A DNA stretch of 64,000 nt from Hydractinia symbiolongicarpus (Eukaryota; Cnidaria; Hydrozoa; Anthoathecata; Hydractiniidae): assembly GCF_029227915.1 (NCBI RefSeq), contig NC_079887.1, forward strand, positions 13,206,001-13,270,000, given 5' to 3'. Both the position numbers and the translations under genes were made by a program. Positions 34,101-60,818 of the stretch are shown here, piece after piece; position 1 is the stretch's first letter; the number at the start of each line of letters is the position of its first letter. The notes under the pieces were generated by a model that ran no database searches, was not told the DNA's origin, and saw only the letters and a list, made by a program, of their open reading frames with translations.

Positions 34101-34645
34101 AAAGAGCATATTATGATCGAGAACTCAAATCAGTTTGGGATGATTTTCATAAATTTATCGGATTCGCAAAAGATCGTATTAAAAATCGTGGAGTTGTATT
34201 TAATTTGCACAGCCATAAGAATTATCCACACAAGATTATTTTAGGCTACTCCATAAAGTACGATGGAGATCGTACTCGAAGCTCCTTAAATGCTTTGTTG
34301 GAAAATAAGAATATAAAGCTAGAAGATGCTACCACAGGTAAATATAGTTTGGTAGATTGCTTAAATAAAAGAAATATTACCAGTAATATCCTTGATGAAC
34401 AGACCAAAGATAGATATCGAGAAAAAAGAGGAGGGAAAGAAGCCGGCGAAGAAGAAGATATAAAAAGAGAAGAAAAGGAAACTGAAGATCACCAACTGTT
34501 TTTAACAAAACTATATGGATCCTATTACGGCGGCTCTGTTGATGCTATGAGGATTTCAGCTCCGCAAAAATATTGCAAAGTTGAGGATTACGTCAAAAAA
34601 GTCAGCTACGGAATAACTGATTTTATGAAATTAAATTACCAGTAA
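31174..34645 (+). CDS. Secreted Ser/Thr-rich protein with C-terminal amidohydrolase-like domain
   Basis: Three exons, 31174-33106, 33253-33660 and 33735-34645, join in phase 1 at both introns to give 1083 residues. The ATG at 31174 starts a signal peptide (MHWLTICIIAGALQ) and follows an acceptor, TTTTTCTTTAG, so a 5' untranslated exon is likely. Exon 1 encodes a low-complexity Ser/Thr/Lys-rich region with two ~110-residue repeats, each starting around LLPTRSSxVQxTP and ending SSRxVQ. Exons 2 and 3 match the 7.5-9.4 kb gene: YHTYPDY, FCEYHEGD, VVPHGGML, KPHIVIMNLQRA, and FNLHSH in place of the usual D-HGH. A Lys/Glu-rich insert lies near the end. The second intron sits at the same place and phase in both genes. 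The first intron's acceptor (CTAGCAAG) is weak, so the fusion to exon 1 is probable, not proven. Confidence 0.72.
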
Positions 34646-37169: not shown

Positions 37170-37485
37170 GGATTATAATCTCCCCCTCCCCTTTCACCTT
37201 ACCCCACCCCACCCTTTCCATCTCACCCCACCGCTTCCACAACACCCACCCCACCCTTTTCACCTTACCCACCGCTTCCACATCACCCCACCGCTTCCAC
37301 CTCACCCCAACTCTTCCACCTCACCCCAACGCTTCCACCTCAACCCACCGCTTCCACCCCACCCCCGAGCTTCCACCTCACCTCACCCCACCTCTTTCAT
37401 ATTACCCCACCACTTTCACCTCACCCCACCCCTTCCCCCTAACCTTAACCCACCCCATACACCAACGCCATCCCCCACCAGGTAT
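37170..37485. repeat. C-rich pyrimidine minisatellite
   Basis: Imperfect repeats of CACCCCACCGCTTCCACCT and shorter CCCCACC words run for about 315 bases. One strand is almost purely C, T and A, and the other is G-rich with many GGGG runs. This is striking in DNA otherwise about two-thirds AT. An open frame across it is a product of the repeat. Confidence 0.88.
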
Positions 37486-38013: not shown

Positions 38014-41000
38014 TTAATTAGTTTCTGATGGGTCAGGGTTTTTACGTTCTGTTTGATTATCACTGACCTCATCTTCAGTTCCTGATAAACTTTCGGTAAT
38101 TACTGCCGAAGTTTCCGCCTTATCTTCCGGCTCAAGTTCAACACAACCTGCATCTTCTCCCGTATGTGGTAATGTATCAGATTTGTCATGGTTAGTTTGA
38201 TTATCATTGACCTCATCCTCAGTTCCTAATAAACTTTCGGTAATCATTGTCGAATTTTTCGTCTTATCCTCCGGCTCAAATTGAAAATAATCTGCACCTA
38301 CTTCCGTATGTGGTAACGTACCAGATTTGTTATGGTTAGTTTGGGGATCATCGACCTCGTCCTCAAAAACAGGGTTAGGCTCGCCACGTTTATAAGTCCT
38401 AAGTCCAGTATACTCCTGGTCTTTGATATCTGTCATGTTCAAATCCGCGTAGTCATCGCTTGGTAACTAAAAACAAAATACATGAAAAAATATGGTTAAT
38501 AATACAGTCTAGTTGTTTAGGCTTAGTTCCAATAAATTTTCATTTTTTCCGTTTTAAAAACTTTTAGTAACTAGTAACTAAGATACTGGTGAAGCTTTCA
38601 ATATACACGTGCAAGGTGAGACATCTATATAAGCTTTTAAACATGGTAGCAAAGGGTAACAATTCTGTCTTTAAACTTTCAGCATGTAAATTCTTATTCA
38701 TATAGTGTTGATTAAAAGAACAATTTGCTTTTGTTTGCGTTTTTTGTAATACATTCAGTACATTATTTTCAGTTTTTTTGACTGTTGATATATGGAAGTA
38801 AGTGTTAATATTGCAACGCAGTATTGAAAATTCATACTTGCCAAATAACTTCCAAATTATCTCAACAAAGGCTACGCAATATGTATCATCGAATGTAAAG
38901 GAAGCGGAAAATGTATATCAAAATATTACGTGTATACCTTCGCTACTAATTGTCTGTTGTGCCAATCCGTTAGCTCTGTTGCTTTCGAAACTAAAAGAAG
39001 CAAGATAAATGTGTATTCATTTACGTATTAATACAAAAACATGCGAGCTATACCTTTGGTAGGCTTCAGCTATCTATGTTGGGCAGCCTAAATATATTTG
39101 TGGCATATAAATTTAAAATGTGATTTTGGAATCGAAATCAATGGATTCTACATAAACGTATGATATTAATGACCAGTAAAATAAATCAAAATATTTCCCT
39201 ACATAATCTTGTAAGGCTTGTTCGGTTAGAGGGGTTTTTGACATCATCCAAGTTGGTATTGTTAAGCATGACTCTTGAATCAGAGTAAGTTAATCTGTGT
39301 TCTTTGGGCTAAAATGAGAGAAAAAGACACACTGTAACACTTATTTTTAATTTGATTAACTAATTTCCTGGTTTTTGTTGTAATAATTAAGATCGCGGAT
39401 GTATCCACTTTAAACAAAATTTAAGTCTATTGCGATTATCACAAAACAAAACGTTTTAATTGAAAAAGACATGCCCTTGACATAATTAGCCTACAATAAC
39501 AAATTTCAAGTTGATTTAATGGTATAATTAATCACATGATTTGTTCTGGCCAATTAAAAATTAAAAGAATAATACTTAAAAAATCTTTTATGGGCACTTG
39601 TAAACGCAATTTTAGAAAATATAATCGACTTAGCAGGTCACAGACGAACAGACACAGTTTTCGTATTAATATGAAAGAATAGTTCATATCACAAAAAGAT
39701 TTGTTGTTAATTTCAAAAACACACGTACAATCAATAAAAATTTTTGAACGAAATAGACAACAAGAATAACAACATTGATTCTCCGTGACTTTACCCGTAC
39801 AATAAGTTATAACAAAGCACCCGTCACGGTAAATTTAAGTTAGCACACAATAAAATTCCCAGCTAACAAAATCAGCTAATATAATTTGTTCTAAACAATT
39901 AAAAATGTAAACAAATATTTTTTTCAAAATACAGAACATTTTTATAGAGGATGTTTTGTAGACCTGTTTTAACCCTATTATACCTGATCTTTTTTGGCCC
40001 TTGTAACCTTGGGGGGGGGATCCTGAACCACTTGGCTCAATTGGAAAATGTCTTAGTACAAACTCAATGCATGTAAAAAAATAATTTGATGACGTCATAG
40101 GGATTAGAAATGACGTCACATGAAAAATAGTCGTTTTCCGAATTTTTCAGTACGTTTTAATTTCTCGCGTGTCACTAATGATATGGCCTTGATTCTTGGT
40201 AGATTTGTGGAATGAATACCAAATTATGTGTTTCACATGAAAAAAGTAATTTTAATAACGTCATTGGGATAAAAACTGACGCCATTTCGGCAAAAAAATT
40301 CCTATTTTAACGCTAAAGATAAAAAAACCCGTTTACCAGAAATATTGATGCTCATGTCCTTAAACTTGGCATATCTGTAGAACAGGTCATTTAAAGATAA
40401 TCGAGTTAAGGAAAACAGTATTATGATGTCATTGGGATCCGAAATGACGTCAATTTGCTGGATCGATATTTCCTTCAAATCTGGTCAGCTTTTTGTCCCT
40501 AGTAACCATATATTACCTTAGCAACACCTTGGTTACCACTTAATAATACATGTAATAAATAATTATATACCCAATACAACATACAAAAAAAACAATACCC
40601 CCAGCAAAGTATAAAATTTTTCCAAAAAATTTTTCTTTCATCAGAAGCAACAAGAAAAGTTGGAATAGTTACAAAATTTCAGCACTTAATCACATGTGTA
40701 TCTAAAGTTATGTCTAGTCATAAAGTGGGCTTGCCAACATGTTTAAATTTAAATGTTTACCTTATCAGCCTTTTTCTTGCGTCTAAAAATAAATTTATGA
40801 GAAGTAATACACATAACAGAAATACAGAAGACAATAATCCTTTTAATAACAAGACTTCACATTCATTTTTTCGTTACTTAACAGTGTTAAAGTGCGATAT
40901 GCAGGCTACGGATTGATATATCATAAAAATGCTTATTTCAGCACGTTGACACTGGGAACGAGAAAGCGGCAGCGAGCATGCCTCCCGTTTTTTGCCCATA

Positions 41001-42863
41001 AACGTTTTTAAGAAGGTAATTAATACCTATAGAAAGATTTGAAAGTCATTGTTGTTGCTTACACCGGCTTTATATAAAATAAGCTTACATGTTTTTATGA
41101 AAAATTTTGAAAGAATGTAACTAGCTAGCTAGTTCAAAATATTTAAAGCTTTTTTTATTAGAAAGTTTGAGTAACTCTGTTAACACTGGTAACATAGAAT
41201 TTAACAAATACAGCTTTTCGTGTTCTCTCTGTTTTCTAGTCAAAACAAACTTTCGATTTTCTGATATTTAATCAATTATACAGATGTAGCTTATTTTACC
41301 GCCAAAAATAATTTTATAAAATAAAAGTATAAAAGTATCAAATTCATCAAAAAAAGTAATTATTTATAAGCAGATTGTCTAGACGTCTATGTAGTTCTAA
41401 AGTGTGTATAATTTTTTGAACCTTGACCTTTAGAGTGGTCCGTTCATTACACGCTATCCTTAGGAAATGGCGGTGATTGAGTTTATTGAATCGTTTAGTA
41501 GCGCCTTTAAAGATATATGTGGTTATAATAAAGGCAAAGCAAAAAATGAATCAGCTGCTTTTTTCACGAACGTGCTTTATCGCGGGAAGTACCCCAAGAC
41601 ACATAAGCTGAGACGAAGAAAACACCACGTATTAACAAGCAAAAAATAATAGATATACAAAAGGCGGGAAGGCTTTTTGTCAATCTTACTCCTTAATAAA
41701 GAAATTTCTAGGCAGAGAAAATAATTAAAGCGAGCTGAACCTTCACAGCTAGTTTTTAGCGATACATGGTATAGATAAAACAAGAATAAAAATATAAGTA
41801 AATACCTTTTAATACAAACCACAGCAATAATGAGTAGTACAATTATGAAAGCCCCTGCGCCAATAACATACCACCATTTTCTCTCAAGGATTTCTTCGTC
41901 ATCCTTCTTAACGGGTTTATGTGTAGTCAAGGTGGTGGTGTTAGTTTGTATAACAGAAGATGTTGCTACGTAAGAAAGTGTAGCGTTTGTGTGGGGTTGG
42001 ATTCTTGTTGACACGACATTTCTTGATCCTTTTTCCAACGATTTTGTAACATTTGAAGTAACTGACTTGGATAATAGTACTGTGGAAGAATGTTCTCCCG
42101 ATGACGTTGCAACTTCAGTTAATTTACTAGTAGGAGAGATTTCTGGCTTTTGGGAGTGCGAAGTATCAATTTTCGTAACAACACTGCCAGGTAAAGTACT
42201 ACGTTGATTTGAAAACAAACTCAAACTAGTTAACTTGAAATTCGTTTGAGAAGCTTTACTAGTAGGAGAAGCATATAAAGGTGTTATATTACGTGATGTT
42301 ATAGCCGAATTAATAGCAGTTAAAGTAAAAATAATGGTGTACGTTTGCATAGGTATAGAAGCTAAACTATTTTTAGGAGCCATTAAACTTGTTAAAGTTA
42401 CGTTACGTAAATGAAGACTAATCGTTGAATCAAGATAAACTTTCTGCGTGGGAGTTAAGTAAATATTTTGTGTTGACAACGTTCTCTTTGACACATACTT
42501 CAAGTTTACACTTTTTGTGGGCGTTACGTAAATCTTTTGTGTTGACCGCGCTCCATTCTTTGACTTAATTTTCAAGTTTATACTTCTTGTGGGCGTTACG
42601 TAAATCTTTTGTGTTGACCACGCTCCATTCTTTGACTTAATTTTCAAGTTTATACTTCTTGTGGGCGTTACGTAAATCTTTTGTGTTGACGGCGTTCCAT
42701 ACTTTGACACGTTTTTCAAGTTTATACTGCTTGTGGGTGTTACGTAAAGTTCTAGTATTGATAGCGTTCTGGTATTTGACGTGTTCTGCAAATCACTACT
42801 TGTTATAAAATTACATTTTGCAATTAACACCACTACCGACAGCAAGAAGTGGACCAAACTCAT
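38014..42863 (-). CDS. RcpC: mucin-like single-pass receptor with YxxL-bearing tail
   Basis: Supported exons are complement(38014-38466, 38938-38990, 39203-39308, 41806-42863). Exon 1 encodes a signal peptide (FLLSVVVLIAKC), a cysteine-free Ser/Thr-rich ectodomain and a membrane span (YVIGAGAFIIVLLIIAVVCI), ending in phase 2. The ectodomain opens with about 4.5 tandem 24-residue repeats around YVTPTRSINLK and continues as a mucin-like stalk with probable O- and some N-glycosylation. The last exon starts in phase 0 and carries YADL and YTGL nine residues apart, an ITAM-like pair, followed by an acidic repeated region (two units with LPHT and ITESL). Exons 39203-39308 (0 to 1) and 38938-38990 (1 to 0) match the phase order in RcpA and RcpB. 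A short exon changing phase 2 to 0 is still missing between 39309 and 41805; total length would be about 556 residues or a little more. The middle exons are the least certain. Confidence 0.68.
41020..41510. repeat. Foldback-type dispersed repeat, copy 1
   Basis: 41020-41200 matches 56835-56990 in the same orientation, while 41225-41510 matches 56480-56800 in the opposite orientation. That pattern fits two partly decayed copies of one element with long inverted ends. This copy lies in the first cytoplasmic intron of RcpC. Confidence 0.6.
42480..42740 (-). repeat. 72-bp in-frame tandem repeats in RcpC
   Basis: Near-identical 72-bp units encode 24-residue blocks reading KIYVTPTRSINLK and ending STQ. 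The two central units differ at only a few bases, so expansion or gene conversion seems recent. Flanking units are more diverged, one being shorter. Confidence 0.85.
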
Positions 42864-45800
42864 CTTCTATTAAACCAAGTGCTTGTTTACTTTTTAGACT
42901 TTATTTTCCAACTTTCTAATTTTTCTTTCTGTAATTATACTCTACATATGTATTACCTGCGTTAACAATGGTTTCAGTTGATATAAGCCAGTAATTAAAA
43001 TCCTATTTTAAAGAAAGTAAATATTCAAAAGATTAGGTAGATAAAAATGCATAGAATTCCAATTAGAAGAAAGCTTAATAGCTTCCTATCTAACACAATC
43101 AATAGCAGACGAACAGAAAACAATAGTAGTCTGAGATGTAAGAAATAGTTTATACGAAAACATTATCAACTGATAGCTATTTACAACCAGTTCATACGGG
43201 AAATACGCAGCGTTTATTAGCTAAAATACCTTAACACGGGCTTTATACCGCACAGTATACCTATCACCTCATAGCAACCATAATGGTAGCTATTACTGTA
43301 AAAAAATAACATTGCCGAGAATCGTTAAAACGTTAAAACTGAGGACCTAACCTTAGTTAGCGTATATGTAATTTTTTCTCGTGTCATAGACAAAGTAGTT
43401 TATATTTTATGAATTCTCACAATGTAATATTTTACTGGATAAAACGTAGTACCACAAAATCTAGCAAAATGAGCTTGCAAAGGAAGGCGGTGGTATTTTA
43501 ATATAGCACGCTTGTTATATTTGTTAACCGTTCGTTAACACAGAGATAAAGCAAAAGAGTATAGTTTGACACCCATCTATTTCAGGAAAATACCATTCAA
43601 CATCGGCCCGTCGACAAGAGCGTTAATCAATCAGAATCCCGGTGATATTATTACGTTTGAAAGAGTATTAAAGAGGTCTGGGTATTGAAAAGTGTATATC
43701 TTGAAAGCGACTTTTAAACTGTAGTTAATCATTTGAAAGATTACACTTCAGGTTTAATTTATAGTCACAATAAGAAGTCTAGTGAGTATTACCATGCAAA
43801 TTGATCTCTATAAACTATGTTGTGTTTACTGTGATGGTTTTTTTACAATAAATAACTCGACATGCATTTTCTCTATCAGAGTAGAAGTAACGAAGAGACG
43901 ACCAGAAAGAATGGAGTCTAGTCACACGGGAATAGCAAAGTGTTTTTATTTACCTTTCAAGAAACATTGACTAATTTGAATTCACCCTACAAAATGCAAA
44001 TTTCGTTAACTTAAACTTCTTATCCACTGGCTAGTAACAAAACATATTTGTAAATCATCTACATAGCATATTCAACGTAGCACTTCACTCGCACTCTAAA
44101 GCATAACTCTGGCACAGTTTAAGAAATATAAACATGGAAGAACGACACAATAAGTTAATCTCATTCTCTCTCTTGTTGAGTTGTGGCATGCCATCGCTCT
44201 ATTAACCAGTTAATTCTGTTTTGCTATGTCAAGTTGTTATTTTATTTGTATTGCTCTTTCTACATTTTATTTTGTTTAATCTGCCAGCCAAAGATACACT
44301 CTTTCATGCACGATTCTTAAAAAGCGAAACAAGGCTTTGCTAACAAAGACAAGAAAAGAGGGAAACAAAAAGATATAAGGAAAGGGTCGCCTGATATACT
44401 GCTCATCTGCCTCTTTTTTGGCAAACAAAATGTTTAAACGCCTTTTTGGATGCAATGTTTTATACGACAGTACGAGTTGCAATCCACAAAATACGAATCA
44501 ATTATTATTTAACAACTCGGTCTGGGCAAATGAAAAAAAGGAATTGAGTAAATATATAAAAAAGGAAAAAGAAGCAAACAAACAAACAAGAAAGCAAAAA
44601 AAAGCGAAAAAATACGAAAATAAAAAAATCAAATAAAATAACAAACAAACAAACAAAAACCAACGAAGATTTCTAAGATCTCTAATACTTATGTATATTA
44701 AGTTGTTTCATTCTTTTTGATACTACCATTCCAGTTACCTGAACAACGTACGCGTCTTTCTAAGTAGCCAGTAAACATGCAACAGGCCAGCAAAGACTTA
44801 GAACTTAAACTCAAGTTTTGGTAACCTTATATTAACAACGTGCCATGTCAATTTAATGCATCATCTTTAATACTTTCTTTCAGTTGCTCACAAGAAACAT
44901 ATGGAAACTGATACTGGAAGTATAATTACAAAAGACTAGGCTATAATTACAAAGGACTCCGGGAATCTTGCCGGAGTTGTGTGTATATGATCAGCTAATA
45001 CCAAAATAGAGTTTCATATATGTGTATACTTGAAAATTTAACGCGTTGCTTATAACGAAATTTCTTTTAAGGTTATCGCCGAATTTTATGTGCGCCTTGT
45101 CCTAGAGTGGAAACCTAACTGTGTAGATTCAATACACTAAAGTAAGAATCATTAAAAATGAAGTTTAAAGAATGTATTAGACTTTTGTTTCTTTATAATG
45201 TTAATTATTTTTTCAATTGATTTGTCTTTCAGCTATGGAAGTTTCTGCTTATTGTTTAACTGCAGATATATTAATATGATTAAGGAAAAAAGCTGTCTGA
45301 TTTCAATGTTTAACAAAAAAAGAGGTTGGAAACTGACAGAACACGTAGCACTGTCAAATTAACGCGACATTAAAACATATTTATTTTCAATGAAAGTAGT
45401 GGATTAATTAATACGGATGAGACAAAAATAGTCATCAATCAATTACATGCTTTCTATAACAAAATTAATATATCTCAAGTGTAGAAACGTTTTTAAGTTT
45501 CCCTACATAGATTTTTCTAGGATGCTCTACAAAATTGCTAGAATAACGAAGTAAGAAAACAACCATTACAAATTTTATTCGAGTTTCTTATTTATAAATG
45601 TTCACATGATTTTGGGAGTAATGAAGCATATTCCGGTATTAATTTCATTTCGGCCTAAAACACAATTTATCCAAAATAAAACTTTATGAATGTTCAAAAA
45701 GTACACCGATATAAAAAACTTCATGTAAGCATAACAAAATGTCATTGGAATTTGGAATGTTTTTTCGGGTCATTCAAAATATACCTAAATGACTAAGAAC

Positions 45801-46100
45801 TAATTAAAGAACTTATCAATTACTTTCCTAAAAAAGATCGCACACTGGGAACACATGCATATTCTTTATTCTACCCTATAGTGAATGAGAAATGGACAAA
45901 AATCTTTTACTTTTAACAGAGATCTATATATTAATCCTTTGTGATGTATAGTATTTTCTAGAAGATATGCATTTACAAAAGCGCTGAGTGTGATAAAAGA
46001 ACTTATAGTATTCCGCAGTATTCCGAAGTTTCAGTATTATGCTGAGAAATAATTTTTTATAAGAATGCTCGTGTAAATTACTTTCATGCCGTGCCCAAAA
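42864..46100. other. Spacer between RcpC and RcpA
   Basis: The promoter of RcpC should lie at the left edge and the 3' untranslated region of RcpA at the right edge. No other gene is supported; small frames at 43782 and 44276-44636 show no domain. A run of AAAC units (about 44575-44660) is a simple repeat. Confidence 0.4.
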
Positions 46101-49100
46101 TCACTCCGGCTCAGTTTCGAAATATTCCGGTTCAGTCTCCATGTATTCCGGTTCGTCATTAATAGAAAGTCGTGCATTGCAGATGCGTTCTATTTTGTTT
46201 ATTAATTGTGAAACGTGTTTCTGTTTTGGTAATGCCATTAAATCTTCTCTAGCTGTATTTGTGTTTTTAGGAAGAAAGTGATTTGATGTTTCAAGTGTAG
46301 TATATTCACTTCTTGTATTTTCTGTTGATAGTTCTGAATATGTACTTTCAGTATTTTCGTTAGATGTATAGTTTGGTGTAATGTCTTTACTAAAGCCAGT
46401 GTAGTTTCCTTTTGAACTCGCTTTTTCTAGATTACAATATTCGTCTGATTGAAAATCATTCGTAAGCCCAGTGTATGTATTTTCTCTCTGTAGTTCAGTA
46501 TACGAATCTGTCGAGCAGTTCTTGATGACGAGACCTTCATAGTTATTGTCTCCCTAAAAAAAACAACCAGTTGAATATATCGACGGCCTATCCAGCCTAG
46601 TTCTTATCGCCTACATAGCCTTGTTTCTATCAGAGAAAGAAGCATTTAGATACTTTATCAATACAAAATACAACGCTAAAAAACAGTTATATGACGCTGT
46701 AGACAAAGGGAAATTAATTACTGATTTAAATTTTTCCCTTAATGTCAGAAAATTCGAAAAAAGGTTAGATACAAATAGGTGACAGAAATTGTCTTTGTCA
46801 TAAAAATAACCGTCGACCTACATCGTTAAAAACACTTATTTTCAACTGTCAAAAGAGGATGGGGATATTCTACAGTTCACAGCTAAATGACAAACAATAT
46901 TGCTAAAAGCACAAGTATTCGTGCTATTAAGAGTAACTATTATGCAAAACACAGTTTGTAAATAAAAAGAAATCGAAACGGTATAGTCAAAATCCTTACC
47001 GAATCAGTCATAGCCTTTAAGTCATACCTTTCCTTTTTTCGACCTGAATGAATCAAAAATGCCATCCAGCGGTCAACAATACACAGGGAAGAAAACATAG
47101 AGTAGTTTTGGCTCACTAAAATCTTACCAAAGTCTTTCTCATACGGATAATCATATAGACGTGCACTTAACCCATGTTGGTGCTGAATATCATGTGTTGG
47201 GTTAGTCTTATCATTGTTTTTATTTTGATTTGTTATGGTAATTGATTGCTTTTCGCTGTTGAAATTGACTTGGGCGTTGTCCTGCTTGATCTAGTAAGAA
47301 AATTAATAATATTTTGCAGACGTGTGTTATGGTGATTTTTTGTTCACTTAATAAAAAAAATATGGAATGGCTTGACGTCTAATTTTTATATTTGTAGAAG
47401 AACTACTTTGTTCATCACTAACATGCTGCCTGGCAGTGTGCGGAATTCGATCCGCGGTCCCCAGAACTGGGAGCCGCAGACGAACCCACTACACTACGCG
47501 TGGCATTATGTTAGTGATGAACTCAGATTATCCGGATGGTGTGTATACATAGGTGAATATTAATCATAGCACATCCGCACATTCTAATTTTTAATTTTTA
47601 AAGTGCAAAAATACATCATTTTATTGGGTTTAGTTTATATTATCTGAATTAAAAAATACAACGTGTTTTTCTTTTGCGTAATATTACACATTTCCTCTCA
47701 TAAAATTTAGCATGTTTCCCTGTCATTTTATATGGGATTGCTTATAAGAGACTGTCTTTACATGTGAAACAAAAACAGACAAGTACTTGTAATTTATTTT
47801 TGTCAATTTTTGTAATTTATTTTTGTCAATTTATCTTTTAATAAATTTCGACAGTTTATGGTCTCTGTAATCTATATTGCAATACTCGCCGTGTGTCTGT
47901 TTGTCTCTGAGCCAAAGTGTTAGTTGCAAGTAGCGACGGACAAATCCCCATAGATTTTTCCAAGGGTCAACAACTAGTTTACAGAGTAAAATTTAATCAA
48001 TTGTAAATGTGAAAAAAACCAGAACAGTGCAATAATTAAATATTTTGCCAATGAAAATTAACACTCTCTACAAATCCGGGAAAAATCTATGCAAAAGGCC
48101 GAGTTTTTGGTTTGTCAAAGGTGTAGGCCAAATAACCTGCGTCAAAATTCTTTTCGATCTAACCAGGTAACCTAAGATCCGAAATCCCGATTCAGAACAA
48201 TCATTGAGAAGTCAGATTTGACAAGTTCGGAGTAGCTACGTGTTTCCTTAGAAACGGCTTTCCCATTTGCTTGTGGTTACGTTGTTTGAAATTCCGTTAT
48301 TCAGGCAATACAAGCGTTAACATATCAGTGACGTGATGAATATGTTAAGCCAGCAAGCGGGATATGTAAAGAAAATGCATGCCTGGGAAAATGAACTGTT
48401 AAATTTACAGATAAAACAAGGGAAATTTATTCTTATTTAGGCAAGTATCTCTTATTTAATGATACAATTTGAAGAATTCAAATCATAGTTTAATGAAGAC
48501 GCTCTGTTTACTTTTTTTTAGAAACATTTGGGCTGCATAAAATGGTGCCTGTTTGCTTGATGGATGAGCTTATTGCCGGATTTAAAATGTTTTAATTGTG
48601 TATGCAGGATACCTTTTGAAACAAAATTTCAAATGGTTTACGCAGGTTAGACTTTCTATTATAACAGGCAAGTGTAACCAGGGTATTCACATTAAAATAG
48701 AGCTTATTTTAGCATCTTTAACATAACCTTACAGTGAGCGGGATTAGGCCCGAAATCGTCAAAAATGGAAGCCGGTTTTTGCTCACTTCTTCTTCCAAAC
48801 GTTCATGTATTTGTAAATGTGACTAACATATTGCTACACTTAAGCCACGGGGAAATGAAACAATTTTTCAGGCGATGTTAACAAAATTAATTTTGTTACT
48901 ATCGCCCGAAAATTTTATTGTGTCGCCACATCTGTGCAACATTAATAATTCAGCAAAATAAATTCAGCAAAATTGCTGCATTGTGATTGGCCGCGCGTAA
49001 AAGTGTTGAATTTTTGTACAAGTGGCGTGACGGAGCATATTCATACGCATAACCTTCTTTGTTGTTGCTGATAACATCTTTTTGTTACTCGCAACATTTT

Positions 49101-52100
49101 TTGTTGCCGGTAACAAGATACAAAATCAAATCAAATCGATTTGATTTTTTAATTTGTTACTGGCAACAAAAATATTGTGAGCACCAAAAAGCTTCTCTGA
49201 CGACACAAGTTACCATTTTTAGGCGATAGAAATCTATATTATAATACTTGTATACATCTGTCCGTCAGTCAGTCTGTCTGTCTGTCTGTCACGTAAAATG
49301 GTACCTTAGTTGCGCAAGTAGCGAGACGCACGTAATGCGGTATAAAAAGGACAGGCAGACCCGTGGATGTTTCCACGGGTCACCGACTAGTTAACATAAA
49401 TTTGTTACTATCGCCTGAAAATATTGTCTCGTGTCCCCGTTGCTTCAGAGCAATAAATAATTTTGTGCTAATTATATAAGTAGTTCGAAGAATTTCGAAT
49501 GTAAAATCATACCTTCTTTAATCTGCACCTAAAATTGAAATCAAAAACTGCATGAAAAACAAAAGTAAAACACTTTGAGACATTTCATTTGCTGTAGTTT
49601 CCATTAAACAAGTTATTAAATCTACTTAATCAAAAGGTCATATTTCGTCATTGAATATTTTCGTTTATTCTCTCCAGTAATAGCTAGAAAAAATCTATGG
49701 TGTATGCCACACCACCACCTGTAGAATCATTTGTTAGATACCTAGTTGAAAAATAATATTAATATAAAAAATACTAAAATAAAAACAGATAAACGCAAAA
49801 AGTAAATCTCCTAGTGATGTTAAACAAATAGAAAGCAGTAACTTCGTTTGCGGACTTACTTTACTATAATGAGAAAAAGTATAATCAAGGCAACAATTAT
49901 CCCACTTAATACGGCAATGAGAATGTAAACATCATTTTCCTCATTCGTTGATTGCTTGGAATACTCATTTGTAGTTGCAGATGGTGGATCATTCGTGGGC
50001 AACGTCTTTACTTTGTCTATAATAGAATTTACGTCAAGAATGCGCTTGTAGTAGTCGCATGGCAATTCTTTAAAAAAAATACTTAAAGCAGACACAGACA
50101 TCTTTTATGTTTCTTATTTCAGAACTGTGTCTTTGTCAAATTACATTAGTTAGCTACTGTTAGTATTTCAACAATTCAACATTTTTTTATAGGTGCATTG
50201 TGCAAACGCTGACTCCAAATGGGCGGTTTAAAGCTTTGTAACATGAAATGAATTAAAGGAAATTTCTAAATGTTTTTCTTTATACTCACACTTGAACTCT
50301 CCTTCAGCTTTCAAGAGCAGACAATCTTTGTATCTTACGTTACAAGACGCTAAAACTTTCAATAGAGCACCGGCCAATAACTGGTCAGATTTGGGTGTAA
50401 TGGAAACTGCAAATGTTCTAGAACGATGTGGTGGGCCCTGCAAAAAAAGATAATGCTACGCATATCTCATAAACAGAATAGTAACAATAATAACATTTTT
50501 ACTAAAAAATAATTGTGATAAGCCATAAAACTGTTCAGCAATGCTGTCTAACTTCCCGTGGACAAAATAGAAGTTAATATTATTTGTAAGTCTTTATAGT
50601 AAAATATATTTTGCGGTAAAGAAATCGTTATATGATAGTCAATACTATAGTATTGGTTATCATATAACGATTTCTTTTCTGCCTTTCTAGTGACCTTCTG
50701 GAGAGGTGCTAGCGAGAATGTGACTTACTAGGGGCTTCGGTGTTGGTGCTATCTTGACTTGCGCCTTGATCATTTGCCATCCCTGCTGTGTGCTTTTCCA
50801 TATAAGAACATCAGTTTGGCAATACGTTTTACCGGTCGATATTAATTGACCTTTTGCTATCCATGCCTTTCCTTGCTTCTTTAATAAAGGGACTAAATTT
50901 CCTAGGCGACTTTTACATTCTAAATTAAAACACACATTATACTATGTAGTCGTTAGCCTGTGGAAAAATCCACGGGTTCGCCCGTCGCAGCTAAGCTACC
51001 ATTTTGCGTGACAGACAGGCGGACGGACGGACAGACGTATACGGGCATTATATTATATTATGTATACTTGAATACAAGAGATAATATAGCAATGAAGACT
51101 TGTCAATATTATAGTTTCTGTTTAGGTTCGTCTCCATGTGGCGGCATATTTCGCTACAGTGCAAGAAGCTCAAAAGTTTTCTGCTAAAATGCAGTGATCA
51201 TTTTCTGTTGTGTTTTAAATTTTTACCTAAATGTTAAAAGTAACGTGACAGCTGCAGTAAACAGGTAATTATTTTAAGCTTGCTATCGCAAAAATGCAGG
51301 GATATTTGGTCTAAGAAAAATCTCTCTGTGTATAAAACATATTTGGAGGTGCTAGTAACTTTCGCAAAAATATCTCGTGTTGTCGACCAGTAGGAAACTT
51401 TTTAAAGCATTTAAAATTATATCTTGCTGTTTTCCAAACCGTTGTAAATAAAGCATCAAATGTGGTTCTCGACTCCCACTCGCCATAGTCATCTTAAATT
51501 ATTAAAACTCTATGTCGGCAAAAGTAGTATGAATTCAACTTTGTTGTTGAGCTCAAGCGCATGTCTGGAGCACAAAAAATGTCTTAACAAGCAGATATTT
51601 TGTCAGATTGGACCTGCGCTAACCGCATGCTGTTTTAGTTGTTTTGCGCTATAGGGCATACTAAATGAAAACTAGCCTTTCTGATGACGCAATAAACGTT
51701 AGTCTGTTGGTGATGCACAAAGCTGCTCGACTTTTCTCTAAAAGTAAGTTTTTTTCGAGATATAGCTATGAATACATCAGGAATGAAAAGACAATAACTT
51801 TGCTTTAGAAAAAAATGTCACATTTTTTAAGCGGAGCTTTATTTCAAAAAAGATGGCAATAAGTAATTTGACGTTTTCGTGAAAATGTTGCTGCCTGAAG
51901 GTGAATGTAACAAGTCGAGGGTGTATTTTTTAATTTTAATTTAGAGTTGTTTTTTGTCCTTTTTGGAATTCCTTATAACAAAGTATCATCATTCGGAATA
52001 TCATCTTTTAGAAGGGATACTTTCAAATGAAAATATATCTCGTAATGCTGAGATATTTGAAATATACTCAGCGTGCGCCAAAAGGGTTACCGCATCCTTA

Positions 52101-52425
52101 AAAACCAAAGATAAATATTTAACAAAATTCTTACTAAAAAGCAATTTTTTAGCGCAAAAATATATTATTAAAAATGGAAGATACCTGGTGCAATTTCTTG
52201 TCGTGAAGAACAACGAAACTTGTCATTTACGGTAAAAAAAGTCCATTTGATAAAACTTTGACAGACACATTTATTACGATCAGACGTGGATTTAGATGCA
52301 TCAAAATTTAAGCAGTTTTCATTAGTAATAACATGGTCATGTAAGTTTCTTCCGGCTGTTATTTCTGTCGTGGTAGCCATGTTTTTGTTTGGAGTCAGTC
52401 CATATATTAAAAGAAAAAGAATCAT
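46101..52425 (-). CDS. RcpA: eight-cysteine receptor with multiple ITAM-like motifs
   Basis: Eight exons, complement(46101-46553, 47000-47043, 47128-47290, 49513-49528, 49860-50016, 50290-50437, 50729-50919, 52185-52425), all join in phase to give 470 residues. The ATG at 52425 starts a short signal peptide (MILFLLIYGL). Exons 1-3 encode an ectodomain with eight cysteines, including C-x14-CxC-x16-C-x10-C and the junction motif APG|EC. Exon 4 encodes a Thr/Ser stalk and a membrane span (about 223-245), and a 16-base exon adds basic CRLKK. The 225-residue tail ends in an exon with YEGL, YTEL, YTGL, YCNL, YTGF, YSEL and YTTL. The pairs 347-362, 359-374 and 392-407 have exactly eight residues between motifs, an ITAM-like spacing. 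It ends with EPEYMET and EPEYFET. SH2-protein recruitment after phosphorylation is inferred. The ectodomain family was not recognised. RcpB is the closest relative in the window. Confidence 0.8.
47410..47522 (-). repeat. tRNA-like element inside 15-bp inverted repeats
   Basis: The outer arms 47410-47424 and 47508-47522 are exact reverse complements (GTTCATCACTAACAT). On the minus strand the interior has TAGTGTAGTGG, like a pol III A box, then a CCCAG/CTGGG stem, then GGATCGAATTCC inside a GCGGA/TCCGC stem, like a B box and T arm. The T loop is one base short and no full cloverleaf could be drawn by hand. It may be a tRNA-derived SINE or a decayed tRNA in a foldback. It lies in the intron about 120 bases upstream (in gene direction) of the 47290 exon of RcpA. 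Confidence 0.5.
47871..47977 (+). mobile_element. Mini-Helitron, 107 bp
   Basis: It starts TCTATATTGCAATACTCG after an A and ends in CAACAACTAG before a T, with a weak hairpin before the end. Its core has degraded GTCTGTTTGTCTC repeats. It is inserted in an RcpA intron. Confidence 0.7.
49233..49390 (+). mobile_element. Mini-Helitron, 158 bp
   Basis: The best-preserved copy. It starts TCTATATTATAATACTTG after an A, has a GTCTGTCTGTCTGTCACGTA core and a GGTATAAAAAGGACAGG block, then a perfect hairpin ACCCGTGGATGTTTCCACGGGT and ends CACCGACTAG before a T. It sits in the RcpA intron just downstream of the 16-base exon. Confidence 0.82.
50618..50677. repeat. Near-perfect 30-bp-arm palindrome
   Basis: Arms starting AAAGAAATCGTTATATGATA meet at 50647/50648 with no loop and differ at only about two positions. 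It lies in the RcpA intron between exons 2 and 3, some 50 bases from exon 2. Confidence 0.88.
50947..51058 (-). mobile_element. Mini-Helitron, minus orientation
   Basis: Hairpin CCCGTGGATTTTTCCACAGG near the left side and a GTCTGTCCGTCCGTCCGCC-like core identify it as the same family. Both terminal bases are degraded, so the boundaries are approximate. It lies in the RcpA intron between exons 1 and 2. Confidence 0.62.
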
Positions 52426-53865
52426 ATCTTTCACAATGATGTTACAAAGTATAAATTTCCCGCTTTCTTTTATGCGTTGCTTTACGCTCTCTCTCGTATA
52501 TCACTTTCATAACGTTCCATGTTTACTTTCAATGTTTGTCTAGAATGTTTTTTCTTTTTAAAAAGTGTTTACTTTGCAGAGCTAGGTCAAAACTTGTTGT
52601 TCTCTATTTATGGTTATAATAGGTTTATTTCTTACGAGAATGCAATTTTGTTTACATTTCGGCTTTAATCAGCTTTACTTTTAACACAAAAACATTTTTC
52701 AAGAGAAAGTCTATTTTTCTCATGTCAAGGACGTGCTCAACTCCATCTATAGTAGATTTTTTGGGTATCAAATAACTTCGGGGGCTAGCAAATGGTCCAA
52801 TGACTTTTTCATGAACATTGATTCAGATATCGTATAGCAATAAATAAAAAGATTGGCAGGAATTTTTAGGTACGATGTCATCGATTTTATAGGAACACTT
52901 GTTTTATTGGAGACTACTAAGAAATATGACAACTGGTTCCCATGCAATTCTTCTTTCCTAATGGTAGCTTTCCAACTGAAAAAAATACAATCTGTAATCT
53001 TGGACAAAAATATTGAGACAAAGGCAGTTTTTCCTCATTATTCAAGCATGGATAAAAGTGTCAAACAGTCAATACACGCGTTGAAATGCTGCTAGTCACA
53101 TTCTTTAGCACGCTCGCACACCAAAATGAATTTACACTGGGACCTACAAAGGCTCCAAAATTCGTGAAACACATTTTAAGAGTTTGGACTTACCAAATTA
53201 CCTAAGATCCTAAGTCCACTTTGAACATTGACAAGTGAACTTTGACAAGTTCGAAATGTGTGAATCCAATATAGTAATATCCTATGAAACTACTTGTGGT
53301 GGCGAACTTCGAAATTAGCTGTCTTGTCTCAACATATTTTGACCAAGATTGTGGATGCTTTCATTTAGCAATAAGATTGTGCTGGCAACATCATAAATTG
53401 AGACTTTTAATTTCTTTAATATAAGCATACAAACAGAATAATAACAGGAGATACTAGATTTAGACCTGTTGAAGCTGTATTTTGAGTTATAACGAAAAAA
53501 GGCAGGTGGTGGTGAAATCCTGCCCCAGCACCAATGACACTAAAGACACAAACTTTTTTAGAATAAAGGTACTTTTAATACAAATAATGACTCAAATGTG
53601 GAATTTAGTCTTTTATTATTGATTCTATAAATGTTCCTTCAGAAAGTGGAAGAATTCCTCAATAAAATGATTTTCATTCACGAGTTTACGACATTTAGCA
53701 CTTTCCATAATGAAAGAAGCATTAAAGAAGCATTAACTACCATTACACACACTTTCAAACTAGCCTGTAATCCTCCACCTGTTGTGCTATTTAAGGGCCA
53801 CCGACCCCTCTGTAAATTTTTGAACTTATTGTTTATTCAATATGAAATTTTGACAAATATTGCCA

Positions 53866-53978
53866 GGACTTTACGTCACAACGTGGTCAAAAGAATTCAG
53901 AAGAATTTAGCATTTTTTCCCCGGACCTTACGTCACAACGTGGTCAAAAGAATTCAGAAGAATTTAGTATTTTTTCCA
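53866..53978. repeat. 57-bp tandem duplication
   Basis: Two nearly identical 57-bp units containing TTACGTCACAACGTGGTCAA sit head to tail. The motif TACGTCACAACGTG in each includes a CRE-like TACGTCA. Length divisible by three leaves a plus frame open, but no coding role is supported. Confidence 0.85.
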
Positions 53979-55770
53979 AAGATGTAATTAAACATACGGC
54001 AATGCGAAAAAAATAGCTTAAATGTTAGATTGTAAAACATTTCAATAATTGCTTAGAATGAATTTTTAAATAGAAGACCGAATAAAAATTTTGTAGAAAC
54101 ATTTTAATAGGTGGTTTGCCGCAATCATTATCCATCTCGCATTTTTCATCAAAGTTTGCACGTCATAAATAGTTCAAACACTATGCCCCTTTCTACAAAC
54201 ACCTATTCATACCCCGGGTGTTAATGTTTTACCTAAGTTAGGCCCAATTACTGCCTAAGAAATTATCAGATTTGTTTGTTTGTTAAGGCTTTTATGAGTT
54301 TGGTGCCTTGTGAAATTGCCTATCTTGGTCTGAAACAGTTAAGAGTATTCTTCTAACCAAGAATGCACATTACAAACGCTGCATTCTATAAAAAAGGTAA
54401 CTCAATTATTGTTGGACTCTTTGTTCAATTGACGCCTCAGTAAGCTAATGAATTATAGCTAAAAAGGAAAAATGTTACTTAGAGTGTTACATAATACTTA
54501 AATTAACTATTTTCATTGCTAGAAATATATGCCAAAATGTACATCTCCAAAAACGGAAATATAAATAAAAAAATGCTAACGTCAGCAAAATTTGTCGGTG
54601 ACACTGATATTTTGTAGCGTGATATTTAATTTTAATGTAAAAGACATCATTTGTACAAAGATTTAGACTTGGTTACGCCGATTTCTACATACACGAATAT
54701 CAAGTTAACCCAGGTTCATCTTAGGGAAAATGTCGATTCGCTTTAGCGTCAGCGGATTTTAAAAGCTTTGAATAAGACTTTGAAGTAGGATGAAAAACAA
54801 TTTAAAAGTCATTTGGGTCTTCAACTTAAAACGGCTAAAAAGACCGCCGGTATAACCCCGCTGCGAATAATGGATATTTCTTTTGCAACATGGCTAACTT
54901 TGGTTAGGCGCAGGAACATATCTAGTCAAGTGAATAAAGAATTATGTGTCAAGTCAAAAGGCAAAGATTTGATTTTAGCAACCGTTTCCGATATTGGAAG
55001 CATTGGAAATATTGGGGGCAAATACATTTGCAATCTCGGTATTCTAAAACCAACATGTATCCCCTGGGTTTGGACTGAATCAGCCCCTTCCCCCCACACT
55101 ATCAGCAAATTTTACGTTTTTTCTTGTAAAAGATTTACTCCAGTTTTCTCTGCTTTGAATAAAAATAATGTTTAACGAAATGTTTAGTCGCAGTAAATTT
55201 TTAGCACTGTAACCGTGTCATTGGTAGGAAAAAGTTCTTCGGATCTATTAAAATAAATTAAATGCCTGAGTGAATGATCGCTTAGTTTGGGCGTCAAAAC
55301 GTACTAATAAAATAAAAATTAGAAAATCCTTGTTCATTTATCTGATTTGTTCTTTCAAATAAGATGACAAATGAAATTGTCTTTTTATTTCTTTAGACCA
55401 ATTAATTATATTGATAATTCCAATGTTTATAAATTGTGCGGGTTGCTTTTCGTGCAAGCAAAGTTAAAAGCCACTGATGTTTTGTTAAACTAGTATTCAC
55501 ATTTCAAACTGTTGGTTGAAAAAACTATGGAAGCTAGTGTTACTTCTATGTTAAGAAGTAGTTTTAATAGCGTAAAAATTAACCATATTCTAAGCTTCCA
55601 TTAACCATACTATTAATATTTGACATCAACTTCAAGAATTTTATTAACTCTATTTGTCCTCAGCCCCTGTTTAACTTTTTCCATAACTCTTTTACGTGCT
55701 TAAAATTACACTTTGATATTTTCTCACATTTCCTAACTTTTATTTAGCTTTTTGGAAAATGTGACGAAGT

Positions 55771-55784
55771 GTTGCCATGGCAAC
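55771..55784. promoter_or_regulatory. Palindromic X-box-like site
   Basis: GTTGCCATGGCAAC is a perfect 14-bp palindrome matching the RFX-binding X-box form. A second exact copy, preceded by the same AGT, is at 58271-58284 inside RcpB. Function here is unproven; RFX sites usually lie near ciliary gene promoters. Confidence 0.35.
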
Positions 55785-56479
55785 TAATATTTGAACAGAG
55801 TTTCGGTAATTATTTTTTATAAAAATGTTTTTATTACCTTTAGGGTACTCCTTAGTACATTGGAATCGCGCCCATAAGCAGACACCATCGGTGCAAAAAA
55901 TAAAATTGTCCACTTTATAAAAGAAATCTATGATTTATAGAGCTTTTGTCAAAATAATTATAGAATTTTGGCCGAAAAATGTTCTTAAAAGTTTACCTTA
56001 CGAGGAATGCATATGAAGAGGCAATGTATTTGGACATTAAACATTATCCATAACAAAAAGTAGGCTATGAAAGATAAAAAAGTATTCTTTAATTGACGAC
56101 TATTTGCGATTCTTAACTGAAAGAATTCTTTCTTGTGATTGTTGACAATGTGTCTTGGGTGTTCGTATCAAGTACCACTGTCCGTCTTATAGCGCTGTTC
56201 TCTTTAGCGGTATTCCACAGCTTCTATTCATACATTATTTTGTTTGTTTGTCACGTTAGTTTGACTAAATATCAAGCAGTTATACAAATATTTTGCAAGT
56301 CTAAGCCCATTTGTACCCATTTCCGTAATTTTGACGTCATTAGTAAAAACGCAAAGATCTGCATTCTTTTTTGACGTAATTGTTAGGCTTGGGCAACACT
56401 TATGGAAGAGTTTGTGTTAATTGAAAAACTACTTAAGAAATTACAGAGGTGGTAAGGCAAATCGGGCCAGCCTCTCCAG

Positions 56480-57060
56480 CATTGAGAATCCCAAAAATAG
56501 CCCAGCAGAAAAAGAGTTAAAAAATTTTATTAAAGAAGCTACGAAAGAAACGATTTAATGGCGTGTAATAAAGGGACCACTCAATAGGTCAAGGTCCTAG
56601 AAGTTATACACAATTTAGAACAATATAGACATGTAGACAACCTGTTTAAGAATAATTAATTTTTGATGATAAATTTGCTACTTTTCAATTTTTATTTTCT
56701 ACAATAAAAAAAAATTCTGCAGTTTTTTTTTTGGCAGTAAAATAAGCTACGGTCTGTAAATATATTAAGTATCAGTAAATCGAAAGTTCGCTTTGACGAG
56801 GGAACAGAGACAACACGAGGAGCTGTGTTACTACCTCTGAAAAGATTTCAAAGCCATATTGTTGCTTAGACTGGCGTTATGTACAATCAAATTTTAAGTT
56901 TCTATACAAAATTTTAAAGGATATAGCTAACTATCTAGTCGAAGGTTTTGGCGTTTATTTTATTACAAAGTTTGAGTTAAAAGCAAGGACCACTGCCATT
57001 AGCTCGATTTTCGTGCAAGTCACTAGATTTAAAATCAACAGCCGTTTCGTAGCCCCTTTA
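56480..57060. repeat. Foldback-type dispersed repeat, copy 2
   Basis: Partner of the 41.0-41.5 kb repeat: 56835-56990 matches in direct orientation and 56480-56800 in inverted orientation. A fragment near 57045-57060 (TAGCCCCTTTAAAATC) resembles the inner part of the inverted arm. The adjacent stretch at 56240-56330 also has a diverged direct copy near 61075-61150. Confidence 0.6.
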
Positions 57061-57250
57061 AAATCACTTTTTACTTGATGGAGGAGACGAGTCGCAGAGG
57101 TACTGTCATAACACGAAAAGAAGATTGGGATGATGATTATTTTTATCTTTAGTAAAGACAACTAATCAACACTCTTTTTAAAACATACGTTAACGTCATT
57201 TGTACATAGCCTTCATGCCAATAAATACTAAATCCATTCTTTCTTCGTAT

Positions 57251-59994
57251 TCAATCCTCCGCGACTGTTTCCACATATACTGGTTCAGACACCAATTTAT
57301 TCTCCGTGTCAGCTTCTATCTCTGTTTCAAAGTACAGCGGTTCTATTAATCCATCATTTTGCAATGATGTTTGTACGCTGTTGCAGTAAGACAGCTGTGC
57401 ATAATCTTCATCAAAGACTCCATTTTTATCTATCTCTTTATAAATCTCTTCTTCTTTCGCCTAAAGTGTTAGTATGATTTTGGTTGATTTATTGATTTCA
57501 TTGGTTAATTACTTTAGAGAAATGAAAATGCGAATTGCGAATTTTACCTTTTCACCCTTTTTATATTGTAAATGAGAAACCATCTGCAAATCTAAATAGA
57601 GTTCATAATATGAAAGCAACAACAACAAAGACTATAATAACAGCAAAAACAGTAAAAACAAAAAAATAAACCAGCAAACAAACAAACAAAACGAATAATG
57701 ACAATAAATCCAGTAAACACAATCTTACCTGCTGTAGCATAATTATCAGATGCATAATTATTTGTTTTTAAGCTTCGCTGATTATTATTATCCACGCAAC
57801 TTGGATTCTTTACCGTAGAATTTGACGGCTAGGAAGTGAAATTATTATGTGTTGGAAAATATAAAGAGATTTGATCTTGTGCATTAAAATTGCAATCAGA
57901 GCGTTATTAACAATTAATCTTTTTAGGAAAGTTGAAATTCTTAACAGGAATAAAGAATCGACAGAAAACAGACTATTTTACATTAGTTTGTAACATCTAA
58001 GCTTTGGTAACATCACTTTTTTCAAAAAGCAACTGGTTCTGTTATGAAAAACTTTGAGTAACTTTTGGTACTCAGTTTTGTATATAGGCAACAATTTTTT
58101 GATCCGGATTAACATATTCAATATTTCCTGATAATTTGCCAAAGGAATGACTAAATTATTTGATTTCAGGATCAATATTTATGTTAGCATGTAAATTTCC
58201 AACACCAAGTACAACTGCCTGTATGAGTAGTCAAACATTGATTCAGATTTTTTCTCAACATAAAAAAAGTGTTGCCATGGCAACATTTTGGCAAATTTCA
58301 AAAAAAAACCAAATAGGGTTAAACCTGCGTATATATCATACAGAATTGTATGTGAAGATAAAGTGTAATGTTAGCATCTTTTATTTCGCTTTTCTCAATC
58401 GGAGAAAACTTAATTTATTTTCTGCACATCCCAAAATTATTTGCATCGGTATATACGACTCTTATTACGCTTTTGGGTCCGAAAGCTTCCAGCAGATAAA
58501 ACTAATTGACATGTGACTGTTTGTTTTACATCGTCACTGTAAAACATCTTTAATCACTCACTTATCCTTATTTTCTAATCGATACAGCAAGACCTGATTT
58601 ACATTAAGCAGCGAAACAAATATGCAATAAGTACGTTAATTAATTTTACCTTATAATTAGTACAATCAAAATTAGTACAACAATTACAACCATAGCGCAT
58701 GCGCTTCCAATGATAATACTGTTGCTATTTCCATTTGAGTTTTCTTTCAATGTCATGGCTGATTTTGTTGTGATCTGTGTCGAAGTCGTTGTTGAAATTG
58801 GTGTTGAAGTTTTTGCTGTTATTGTTGTGTAATCTAAAAAATTGATAAATCCGTGCAAATGTTCCTAGAATATAGCTTGTTGTAGAAACGGTTTGATAAT
58901 GTTCTAAATCCAATCTACTTAAAAGATGATCATTTATTCAATAATTACTTACAAGTATATGTTCCAAATTTTTTATATACGTAGCAATCAGCTGAAATAA
59001 CATGTGTTGAAGGATTTTTTCGCTTGCCACAAAGTAATTTAACCAATCTTCCTTTAATATTATTCAATTTTCCATTGAGCTAAACAGAATTCATTTTTAC
59101 TACTTCGACATAACCAGATGACATTTTGAGGAATGTCAATGAGACATTTATGTAATTAAAATAGGAAAATGCCTTTAATCCAAAATAAGACATTTTGGAC
59201 GCAGAGTATGAAATTACCTACGTTTAGAGCGCAATAAGTACTTTAATAATTAGATCTTTGTTCTTTTATCATTTGGTTGACTATTTTAATGAAAATTAAA
59301 TACCCAAATATTAAGTCCTTCTCCATCAAAATGTTCTTCAATATGAATATTCACCCAACTTTGGGCAATGCTATTCCATGCCAATAGTGAATAATGTTGA
59401 CAATCTTCAATGTCACCATATATTTTTTGAGAGTTCAAGACATCTTTTTTACATTCTAACATCAAGAAGAAATGCATTCATAATTTAAAGTAATATCATC
59501 TCATCAAGAGGGGAGTTTATTCTAGAAGTTTTCAAGCAGCATCTTACACACTGACTGAGATAAAAAGTACGTTCCATCGATGACAGAGGTAACTGTCGAA
59601 ATGGTAGCCTAGAATAAATTCCCTTGTTTATGACGTTTTAAGATATTTTTCAATGACAATTCGTGGCAGTGTTTTTAAAATAATGAAAGGAAAACTTAGA
59701 TTAGAGAATAACTTAATAATTCAAAAACATAATGGCATAGTAGGTACCTGGTGAGATTTTTGAACGTCTAAAGCAACCAGCTGTACCATTAACAATATGA
59801 AACGTCCTGTCTCTACTGCTGCATTTACATAGACCGTTTGACCTTCCCCACACCGTGTTACTAAGTTGATCACATTCCGACTTGTTTACATTTTGTATTA
59901 CATCTCTGTATTTTCTAGAAACCTTTAGACATTCGACAACATATAACAAGAATATAACGCTCATGTAAATACTTGAATTTTTTACCAACTTCAT
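57251..59994 (-). CDS. RcpB: eight-cysteine receptor with tyrosine-motif tail
   Basis: Supported exons are complement(57251-57460, 57548-57591, 57729-57828, 58650-58833, 58953-59079, 59304-59455, 59748-59994). The ATG at 59994 gives a signal peptide (YMSVIFLLYVVEC). The ectodomain has eight cysteines in the RcpA pattern (C-x14-CxC-x15-C-x10-C, junction SPG|EC), coded by exons with the same three phases as RcpA. Exon 4 has a Thr/Ser stalk and a Val/Ile-rich membrane span ending ILIVLII. The tail contains IYKEI, YAQL and EPLYFET, and ends EPVYVET followed by VAED. The three tail exons run 0 to 1, 1 to 0 (44 bases, the same length as in RcpA) and a phase-0 last exon. One short exon changing phase 2 to 0, between 57829 and 58649, was not found; the gene may also be broken there. 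Expected length is about 354 residues or slightly more. Confidence 0.74.
58271..58284. promoter_or_regulatory. Palindromic X-box-like site, second copy
   Basis: Exact GTTGCCATGGCAAC in the long RcpB intron after the membrane exon. It shares three flanking bases with the copy at 55771. It could be a binding site or part of a dispersed repeat. Confidence 0.35.
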
Positions 59995-60818
59995 CTTACC
60001 ATCTACTAACATGTATTTATGTTTTTTAATTAAAGTGATATGAATCAATATTCTTTCTAGATAACTTTCACAACTATAGAAAATACTTTTTATTTATTAA
60101 AAAGGAATTTACTGAATAAAATGGATCAATTTTTGTAATTACTTAAGAAGTAATTACTTTTGTTTGGAGGTTTGGTTTAATTGTGTATTCTGCGTATTAG
60201 ATTTCCAGAACGGAAAGTAAAACTTGTTTGCTAAGTATGTTAAGAACTTTCGTCGCAAGCATAATCTCACCCCACACGCAATTTCGAGAGTAGAGGTACC
60301 AGCCAACTAAAAAAGTACCTCAAGTGTAGAAAACTTCTGACAATCAATGTTACGCAATATACGAAAATATATTCAAATAGAGAAGACAAAAATGTAAAAA
60401 AATACTCTATAAAAATTATTATAACGCATATTATTATATACCCGTAAGCAAAAACAGCCATTGAATAAATAATCGTATTCCACGCGTATTATTCAATGCT
60501 TGTGACGTAACAATAGTTTTGAGAAAACATTCGTAAACGCATGTTTTGATTTTATCCTTTCCGCCTCATTAATTTTTATCGTAATTAACTGTGATTGGTT
60601 GTTTCTTAGTGGTCCGTTTTCTGATTGGTCGATTTCCAAACACGTGAAATGGCGGGAACTTTTTTGTCGAGAAAATTCTTTTTACAAAAACATCAAAACA
60701 AAGAAATCGAAACAAAAATGAATCGCTTCACTATAAAATGAAACGAAAACAAAACAAACACAAAACAAAATAAGTAATATTAATTATAACAATCTCTTTT
60801 GGGTATATAATAAAACAT

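Follow-up and report, generated by a model that had tools for sequence, protein, structure and literature searches.

Hydractinia has been a subject of allorecognition research for 70 years (PMC12464821). Its Alr genes form the allorecognition complex (ARC) on chromosome 3, and Alr-like hits on chromosomes 5 and 6 are also mentioned (PMC11876637). The Hydractinia genome is said to encode the molecules for signalling through immunoreceptor tyrosine-based activation or inhibition motifs (ITAMs and ITIMs), and such motifs occur on candidate allorecognition genes (PMC12065747). Cnidarians have Syk/Zap70 homologues with ITAM-binding SH2 domains as well as a CARD-CC/Bcl10/MALT1 set, and in invertebrates including cnidarians these homologues are tied to the CARD-CC/Bcl10 module; the ancient ITAM receptors upstream of them are only inferred there (PMC5978004). 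Here we describe receptor genes in a 64,000-nucleotide (nt) stretch of chromosome 13 of Hydractinia symbiolongicarpus (HSymV2.1; G000:C13:13206001-13270000), referred to below as the window. Three genes that we call A, B and C lie amid a multigene family of type I receptors that is almost certainly real, and several of its members have canonical ITAMs. It is probably a hydrozoan family that evolves by birth and death, with ITAMs in the receptors themselves, and is separate from the chromosome 3 Alr complex.

Gene A (38014-42863), gene B (46101-52425) and gene C (57251-60012; window coordinates) all lie on the minus strand and have GT-AG introns. The original prediction had placed three minus-strand type I receptor genes here, each with one membrane span ending in phase 2, and in all three the exon that encodes the span does end in that phase. 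Signal peptides (a hydrophobic N-terminus) and membrane spans were called by eye, without a predictor. The exons are as follows.

Gene A, exon 1: 41806..42863, minus strand; signal peptide (by eye), Ser/Thr-rich mucin-like ectodomain and membrane span, ending in phase 2; identical in NCBI LOC130623596
Gene A, juxtamembrane mini-exon of 22 nt: 40761..40782, minus strand; phase 2 to 0
Gene A, tail exon: 39203..39308, minus strand; phase 0 to 1
Gene A, tail exon: 38938..38990, minus strand; phase 1 to 0
Gene A, last exon: 38014..38466, minus strand; YADL-x9-YTGL, ITAM-like without the acidic residue at -3
Gene B, exon 1: 52185..52425, minus strand; signal peptide (by eye) and N-terminal Cys module, ending in phase 1; a 96% identical copy lies at C13:13275650-13275892
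Gene B, exon 2: 50729..50919, minus strand; second ectodomain part, phase 1 to 0
Gene B, exon 3: 50290..50437, minus strand; second ectodomain part with two Cys, phase 0 to 1
Gene B, exon 4: 49860..50016, minus strand; short stalk and membrane span, phase 1 to 2
Gene B, mini-exon of 16 nt: 49513..49528, minus strand; phase 2 to 0, in place and phases like the mini-exons of C', M4 and P0006
Gene B, tail exon: 47128..47290, minus strand; phase 0 to 1
Gene B, tail exon: 47000..47043, minus strand; phase 1 to 0
Gene B, last exon: 46101..46553, minus strand; three canonical ITAMs, C-terminal EPEYMETEPEYFETEPE
Gene C, exon 1: 59748..60012, minus strand; signal peptide (by eye) and N-terminal Cys module; NCBI LOC130623600
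Gene C, exon 2: 59304..59455, minus strand
Gene C, exon 3: 58953..59079, minus strand
Gene C, exon 4: 58650..58833, minus strand; stalk and membrane span, ending in phase 2
Gene C, junction (approximate): 57829..57860, minus strand; about 250 nt, including the mini-exon WKKANRT present in C', are gone
Gene C, tail exon: 57729..57828, minus strand; out of frame in the NCBI model (SRQILR, stop)
Gene C, tail exon: 57548..57591, minus strand; outside the NCBI protein
Gene C, last exon: 57251..57460, minus strand; EEIYKEI-x9-YAQL ITAM, EPLYFET and EPVYVET; outside the NCBI protein

The model of gene A equals NCBI LOC130623596 across 563 amino acids and threads onto the DNA as five exons. Downstream of this gene, at 37180-37460, there is a G-rich low-complexity tract on the minus strand with GGTGGGGTGAGGTGGAA-like repeats. 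Gene B, modelled in this analysis alone without a matching NCBI model or transcript, has eight exons; all seven introns are GT-AG and the phases equal those of relatives modelled by NCBI. The exon joins of A, C and two further cluster members, C' (LOC130623598, P0001) and M4 (LOC130623868), match NCBI models threaded exactly onto the genome. A type I layout (signal peptide, ectodomain, one span and in-frame tail) is found in A, C' and M4, by exact threading of the NCBI proteins, and in B, by the exon model; C departs from it in the tail. All three genes stand where they had been predicted, and A and B read as complete. Two of the three, A and B, have a readable tail in the assembly; the prediction fails at C, whose tail exons run out of frame.

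What happened to C can be read from its close copy. In C', a 22-nt exon encoding WKKANRT directly follows the membrane span. About 250 nt including this mini-exon have been deleted from C, whose remaining exons are as in C', and the tail exons of C are out of frame because the mini-exon is lost. The NCBI model of C (LOC130623600, P0002) joins the span straight to the next exon and adds six tail residues, SRQILR, before a stop, so that the YxxL tail of C is present in the DNA and unreadable in this assembly.

The exon architecture ties B to relatives on two chromosomes. B, C', M4 and the chromosome 7 member P0006 (LOC130649357) all follow one eight-exon layout, with end phases 1,0,1,2,0,1,0, a mini-exon of 16-25 nt and a seventh exon of 35-44 nt. 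Gene A has no Cys module; from the membrane span onward its phases are 2,0,1,0, as in the family, and its exons there measure 22, 106 and 53 nt, so its kinship rests on position, phases and exon sizes and not on sequence similarity. Across nine members, six columns of the exon 1 Cys module are invariant (four Cys and a TF pair), and exons 2-3 hold further conserved Cys, Trp and Gly positions. For the family proteins, no Pfam family scores above its cut-off, and no immunoglobulin (Ig) family is among the Pfam matches listed (including 25 of 39 families in one scan). Of 170 V-set candidates across the genome, 150 were scored, and not one of these matches falls in the chromosome 13 or chromosome 7 receptor clusters. 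On a low-confidence model, the second ectodomain part may be a divergent Ig-like domain. The proposal that these ectodomains lie outside the Ig class agrees with the Pfam and V-set results and is qualified at the second domain. As a separate observation, an Ig-like plus thrombospondin type 1 sequence on chromosome 3 (L055, G000:C3:11148300-11153300) adjoins a V-set match and looks by eye like a receptor unlike Alr.

The original prediction also named an immune receptor locus, and four sequence-level observations support that reading: ITAMs of canonical form, tandem clustering of genes with some copies broken, a large tandem duplication, and decoupling of ectodomain and tail in a minority of protein pairs.

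First, canonical ITAMs, defined as [DE]xxYxx[LI]x6-12Yxx[LI] and assessed by tail shuffling, number three in the tail of B and one each in C', the contig-derived protein P0004, M1, M2, M3 and M4. The count in B was reached in 0 of 20,000 tail shuffles, and the single ITAMs of C' and M1-M4 gave shuffle p values of 0.003-0.006 each, with M1, M2 and M3 represented by the last exon only and assigned to genes by order along the cluster. The plus-strand member N1 has a canonical ITAM as well, the unread tail exons of C hold one (p 0.005), and in most chromosome 13 members examined the ITAM is followed by EPxYxET repeats. Over 224 kb in six frames, the pattern occurs 16 times, 12 of these in family tails (three of the 12 in unread or broken ones: C, the B' tail and M5), whereas 40 Markov sequences average 3.3 with at most 9 and the reversed sequence has 3. 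Within open reading frames (ORFs) of at least 60 amino acids, the count is 11, with 10 in the family; the Markov sequences average 0.75 there and never exceed 2, and the reversed sequence has 0. The predicted pairing of YxxL motifs at ITAM spacing in two of three tails is borne out by B, with its canonical motifs, and loosely by A; in C, a pair exists only in the unread exons.

These motifs could instead be endocytic sorting signals of the YxxPhi type, the AP-2 sorting pattern, and have no part in signalling. Every single YxxL/I matches that pattern, and A lacks the acidic residue at -3. Against sorting stand the acidic -3 residue and the spacing of 8-10 found together in six cluster tails (B, C' and M1-M4), the ITAM grammar of N1, and the 11 long-ORF occurrences, all but one in the family, against a Markov average of 0.75; we consider this explanation very improbable.

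Second, the genes belong to a tandem cluster that includes broken copies. By tblastn across 224 kb (13126001-13350000), the chromosome 13 cluster comprises at least 13 loci counting A, spread over about 190 kb (13.149-13.339 Mb): N2 and N1 on the plus strand and A, B, C, B', C', M5, M4', M4, M3, M2 and M1 on the minus strand. At least three loci besides C are broken, namely M5, where stops interrupt both exon 1 and the tail; B', whose adjoining tail is interrupted by a stop or frame shift; and M4', a fragment. First-exon matches number at least 26 genome-wide: the cluster has 12, the rest of chromosome 13 has 3, chromosome 7 has 10 and chromosome 5 has 1. This lower bound is the union of several searches, with an E limit of about 0.02, and hits to exons other than the first were excluded from the locus count. 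An in-frame stop falls inside the first-exon match in 3 of the 26 (M5, M4' and C7:7214911). A further match on chromosome 6 was rejected (five stops, E 0.46). The tail pattern Y-[FILMV]-E-T-E-P-E-Y has 12 matches, of which chromosome 7 holds 7 and the chromosome 13 cluster the other 5; the reversed control has none. We found no paper naming six of the gene ids, and among the titles listed none describes such a family.

Two chromosome 7 clusters (G000:C7:21.89-21.93 Mb and 32.85-32.89 Mb) each contain four first exons, the order and strands of one cluster mirroring those of the other, and mirrored V-set pairs are present on C6 and C3 too. These mirrored arrangements may be inverted duplications or assembly effects.

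Third, B-C and B'-C' lie within a tandem duplication of about 17-18 kb at 88-98% identity. B' itself (G000:C13:13271700-13275900) is a second copy of B exons 1-3, situated upstream of another member's broken tail. Because tblastn over the 224 kb revealed no copy of the B membrane-span exon in this region, B' may encode a secreted fragment.

Fourth, ectodomain and tail are decoupled in two of six protein pairs, in opposite directions. P0004 is a continuous 333-amino-acid protein with the whole architecture; its 1,107-nt contig is too short to hold the introns of C', so that it is probably a transcript. Between C' and P0004, 112 of 124 tail residues are identical, compared with 33/56 in the exon 1 module and 31/78 in exons 2-3. 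On chromosome 7, P0006 and P0007 agree at 48/55 positions in the module, 69/105 in exons 2-3 and 9/28 in the tail. The remaining four pairs are more even; two examples are C' and M4, with corresponding values of 28/55, 25/82 and 58/120, and P0006 and P0009, with 29/55, 54/105 and 60/101.

An ectodomain of 40-60% identity joined to a 90% tail, as in P0004, is what a highly polymorphic allele would give at an allorecognition locus proper, where fusion or rejection would depend on polymorphic ectodomains serving as self labels, in a second system beside Alr. The tandem cluster, and the species and broad architecture common with Alr, would suit such a locus too. However, P0004 may come from another species or be a paralogue, and the window lies on chromosome 13, outside the chromosome 3 ARC and unlinked to it. 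Published crosses rejected dominant unlinked modifiers in three backgrounds. Mainly because of this unlinked position and these crosses, it is unlikely that the locus sets self identity, and the self-recognition role suggested as one possibility in the original prediction is not supported; a second self-labelling system appears improbable to us.

The most likely job of these receptors is sensing at the cell surface, either in innate immunity or as allogeneic effectors, in parallel with Alr or downstream of it and not as the primary self label, and their ITAMs are likely to signal in an immune or contact-recognition setting. Clustering of the receptors by ligand would allow a Src-family kinase to phosphorylate both ITAM tyrosines; a tandem-SH2 Syk-type kinase would then dock on the phosphorylated ITAM, and the activating output could be cytotoxic, phagocytic, or NF-kB-like through CARD-CC/Bcl10/MALT1. 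Members that have lost the tail, such as C, would act as decoys. Inhibition would fall to chromosome 7 members that carry one ITIM-like motif (LOC130649137), on the model of paired-receptor families; the C-terminus of P0007, SGYAELQI, is an ITIM-like motif. A more elaborate version is a natural-killer-like paired system on chromosomes 13 and 7, in which ITAM-activating chromosome 13 receptors and ITIM-inhibitory or tailless partners would read self or microbial ligands through related, fast-diverging ectodomains. Such receptors would power the effector arm of allogeneic rejection, and Alr would supply the self label. We put this forward tentatively and regard it as doubtful.

Several results weigh against an immune role for the family. 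The tail of A offers no more than YADL-x9-YTGL, in which the acidic -3 residue is missing (p 0.06 for a pair of YxxL/I); none of three chromosome 7 tails tested (P0006, P0007 and P0009) has a canonical ITAM; C is tailless, its ITAM exon unread; and four of the six protein pairs have no strong contrast between ectodomain and tail. Amino-acid changes are not in excess between the recent copies C/C' and B/B', with ratios of nonsynonymous to synonymous change (dN/dS) of about 0.6 for the C ectodomain, 0.9 for the C tail and 0.4 for the B ectodomain, from few changes; as these ratios are below 1, positive selection went undetected.

ITAM-dependent signalling also has uses outside immunity: through the kinase Shark it serves Draper-dependent engulfment by glia (work cited in PMC5978004). 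The family might accordingly consist of engulfment or cell-contact receptors for development or tissue upkeep, with Draper/CED-1-like use of ITAMs. A mucin stalk with a single span is compatible with adhesion molecules, and the chromosome 7 tails without ITAMs fit this picture. Single-purpose housekeeping receptors, on the other hand, would be unusual in having expanded in tandem, with copies broken, a signalling exon deleted, and ectodomain and tail shuffled; we consider this explanation unlikely.

Elsewhere in the window, two genes that look similar by eye, at 7480-9412 (minus strand) and 31114-34645 (plus strand), have a V-x-H-G-G type stretch in common; one of them sits behind a long Ser/Thr-rich open frame, and the former has a weak, sub-threshold match to poly-gamma-glutamate hydrolase (E 0.11). 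A cytochrome P450 occupies a single open frame at 16064-17542 on the plus strand (PF00067, E 2e-108), and a transposase-like open frame of 905 amino acids at 23790-26507 on the minus strand has DUF4371 and hAT dimerisation domains.

Hydractinia is open to genome editing (PMC6122657). Read as ITAM-bearing receptors of immune type, the family supplies concrete candidates, with textbook ITAMs, for the receptors upstream of cnidarian Syk-type kinases and CARD-CC/Bcl10/MALT1. Because it is separate from the Alr genes, two questions come within reach of experiment. One is the function of ITAM receptors in an animal whose lineage diverged ahead of the bilaterians; the other is whether activating effector receptors exist in Hydractinia alongside the self labels.

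Among vertebrates, the paired receptors KIR and Ly49 likewise set activating and inhibitory tails on related ectodomains, and CD3 zeta, like B, has three ITAMs in a single tail. No sequence relation to these proteins has been shown, the Hydractinia ITAM is in the receptor itself and not in an adaptor, and, as a further difference, the chromosome 7 member that may be the inhibitory partner carries just one ITIM-like motif. The oyster receptor CgIgIT2 is an invertebrate receptor that carries its own ITAM, on an ectodomain of five Ig domains (PMC11999971). In Botryllus, fester and the fester co-receptor (FcoR) of the fuhc are also clustered, polymorphic receptors, the latter with ITIM/hemITAM tails (PMC12065747); the ectodomains of these families contain Ig and sushi domains and the families are tied to the fusion locus, whereas the Hydractinia family has full ITAMs and no recognised domain. 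Closest of all in species are the Alr genes of the chromosome 3 ARC, which are also clustered single-pass receptors with presumed pseudogenes (PMC11067881) and have tails reported to be of ITIM/ITAM type (PMC12065747; compared by description only). Alr ectodomains are V-set and I-set Ig domains (PMC11067881, PMC11999971), whereas the chromosome 13 family is on another chromosome and has no Ig family among the matches listed.

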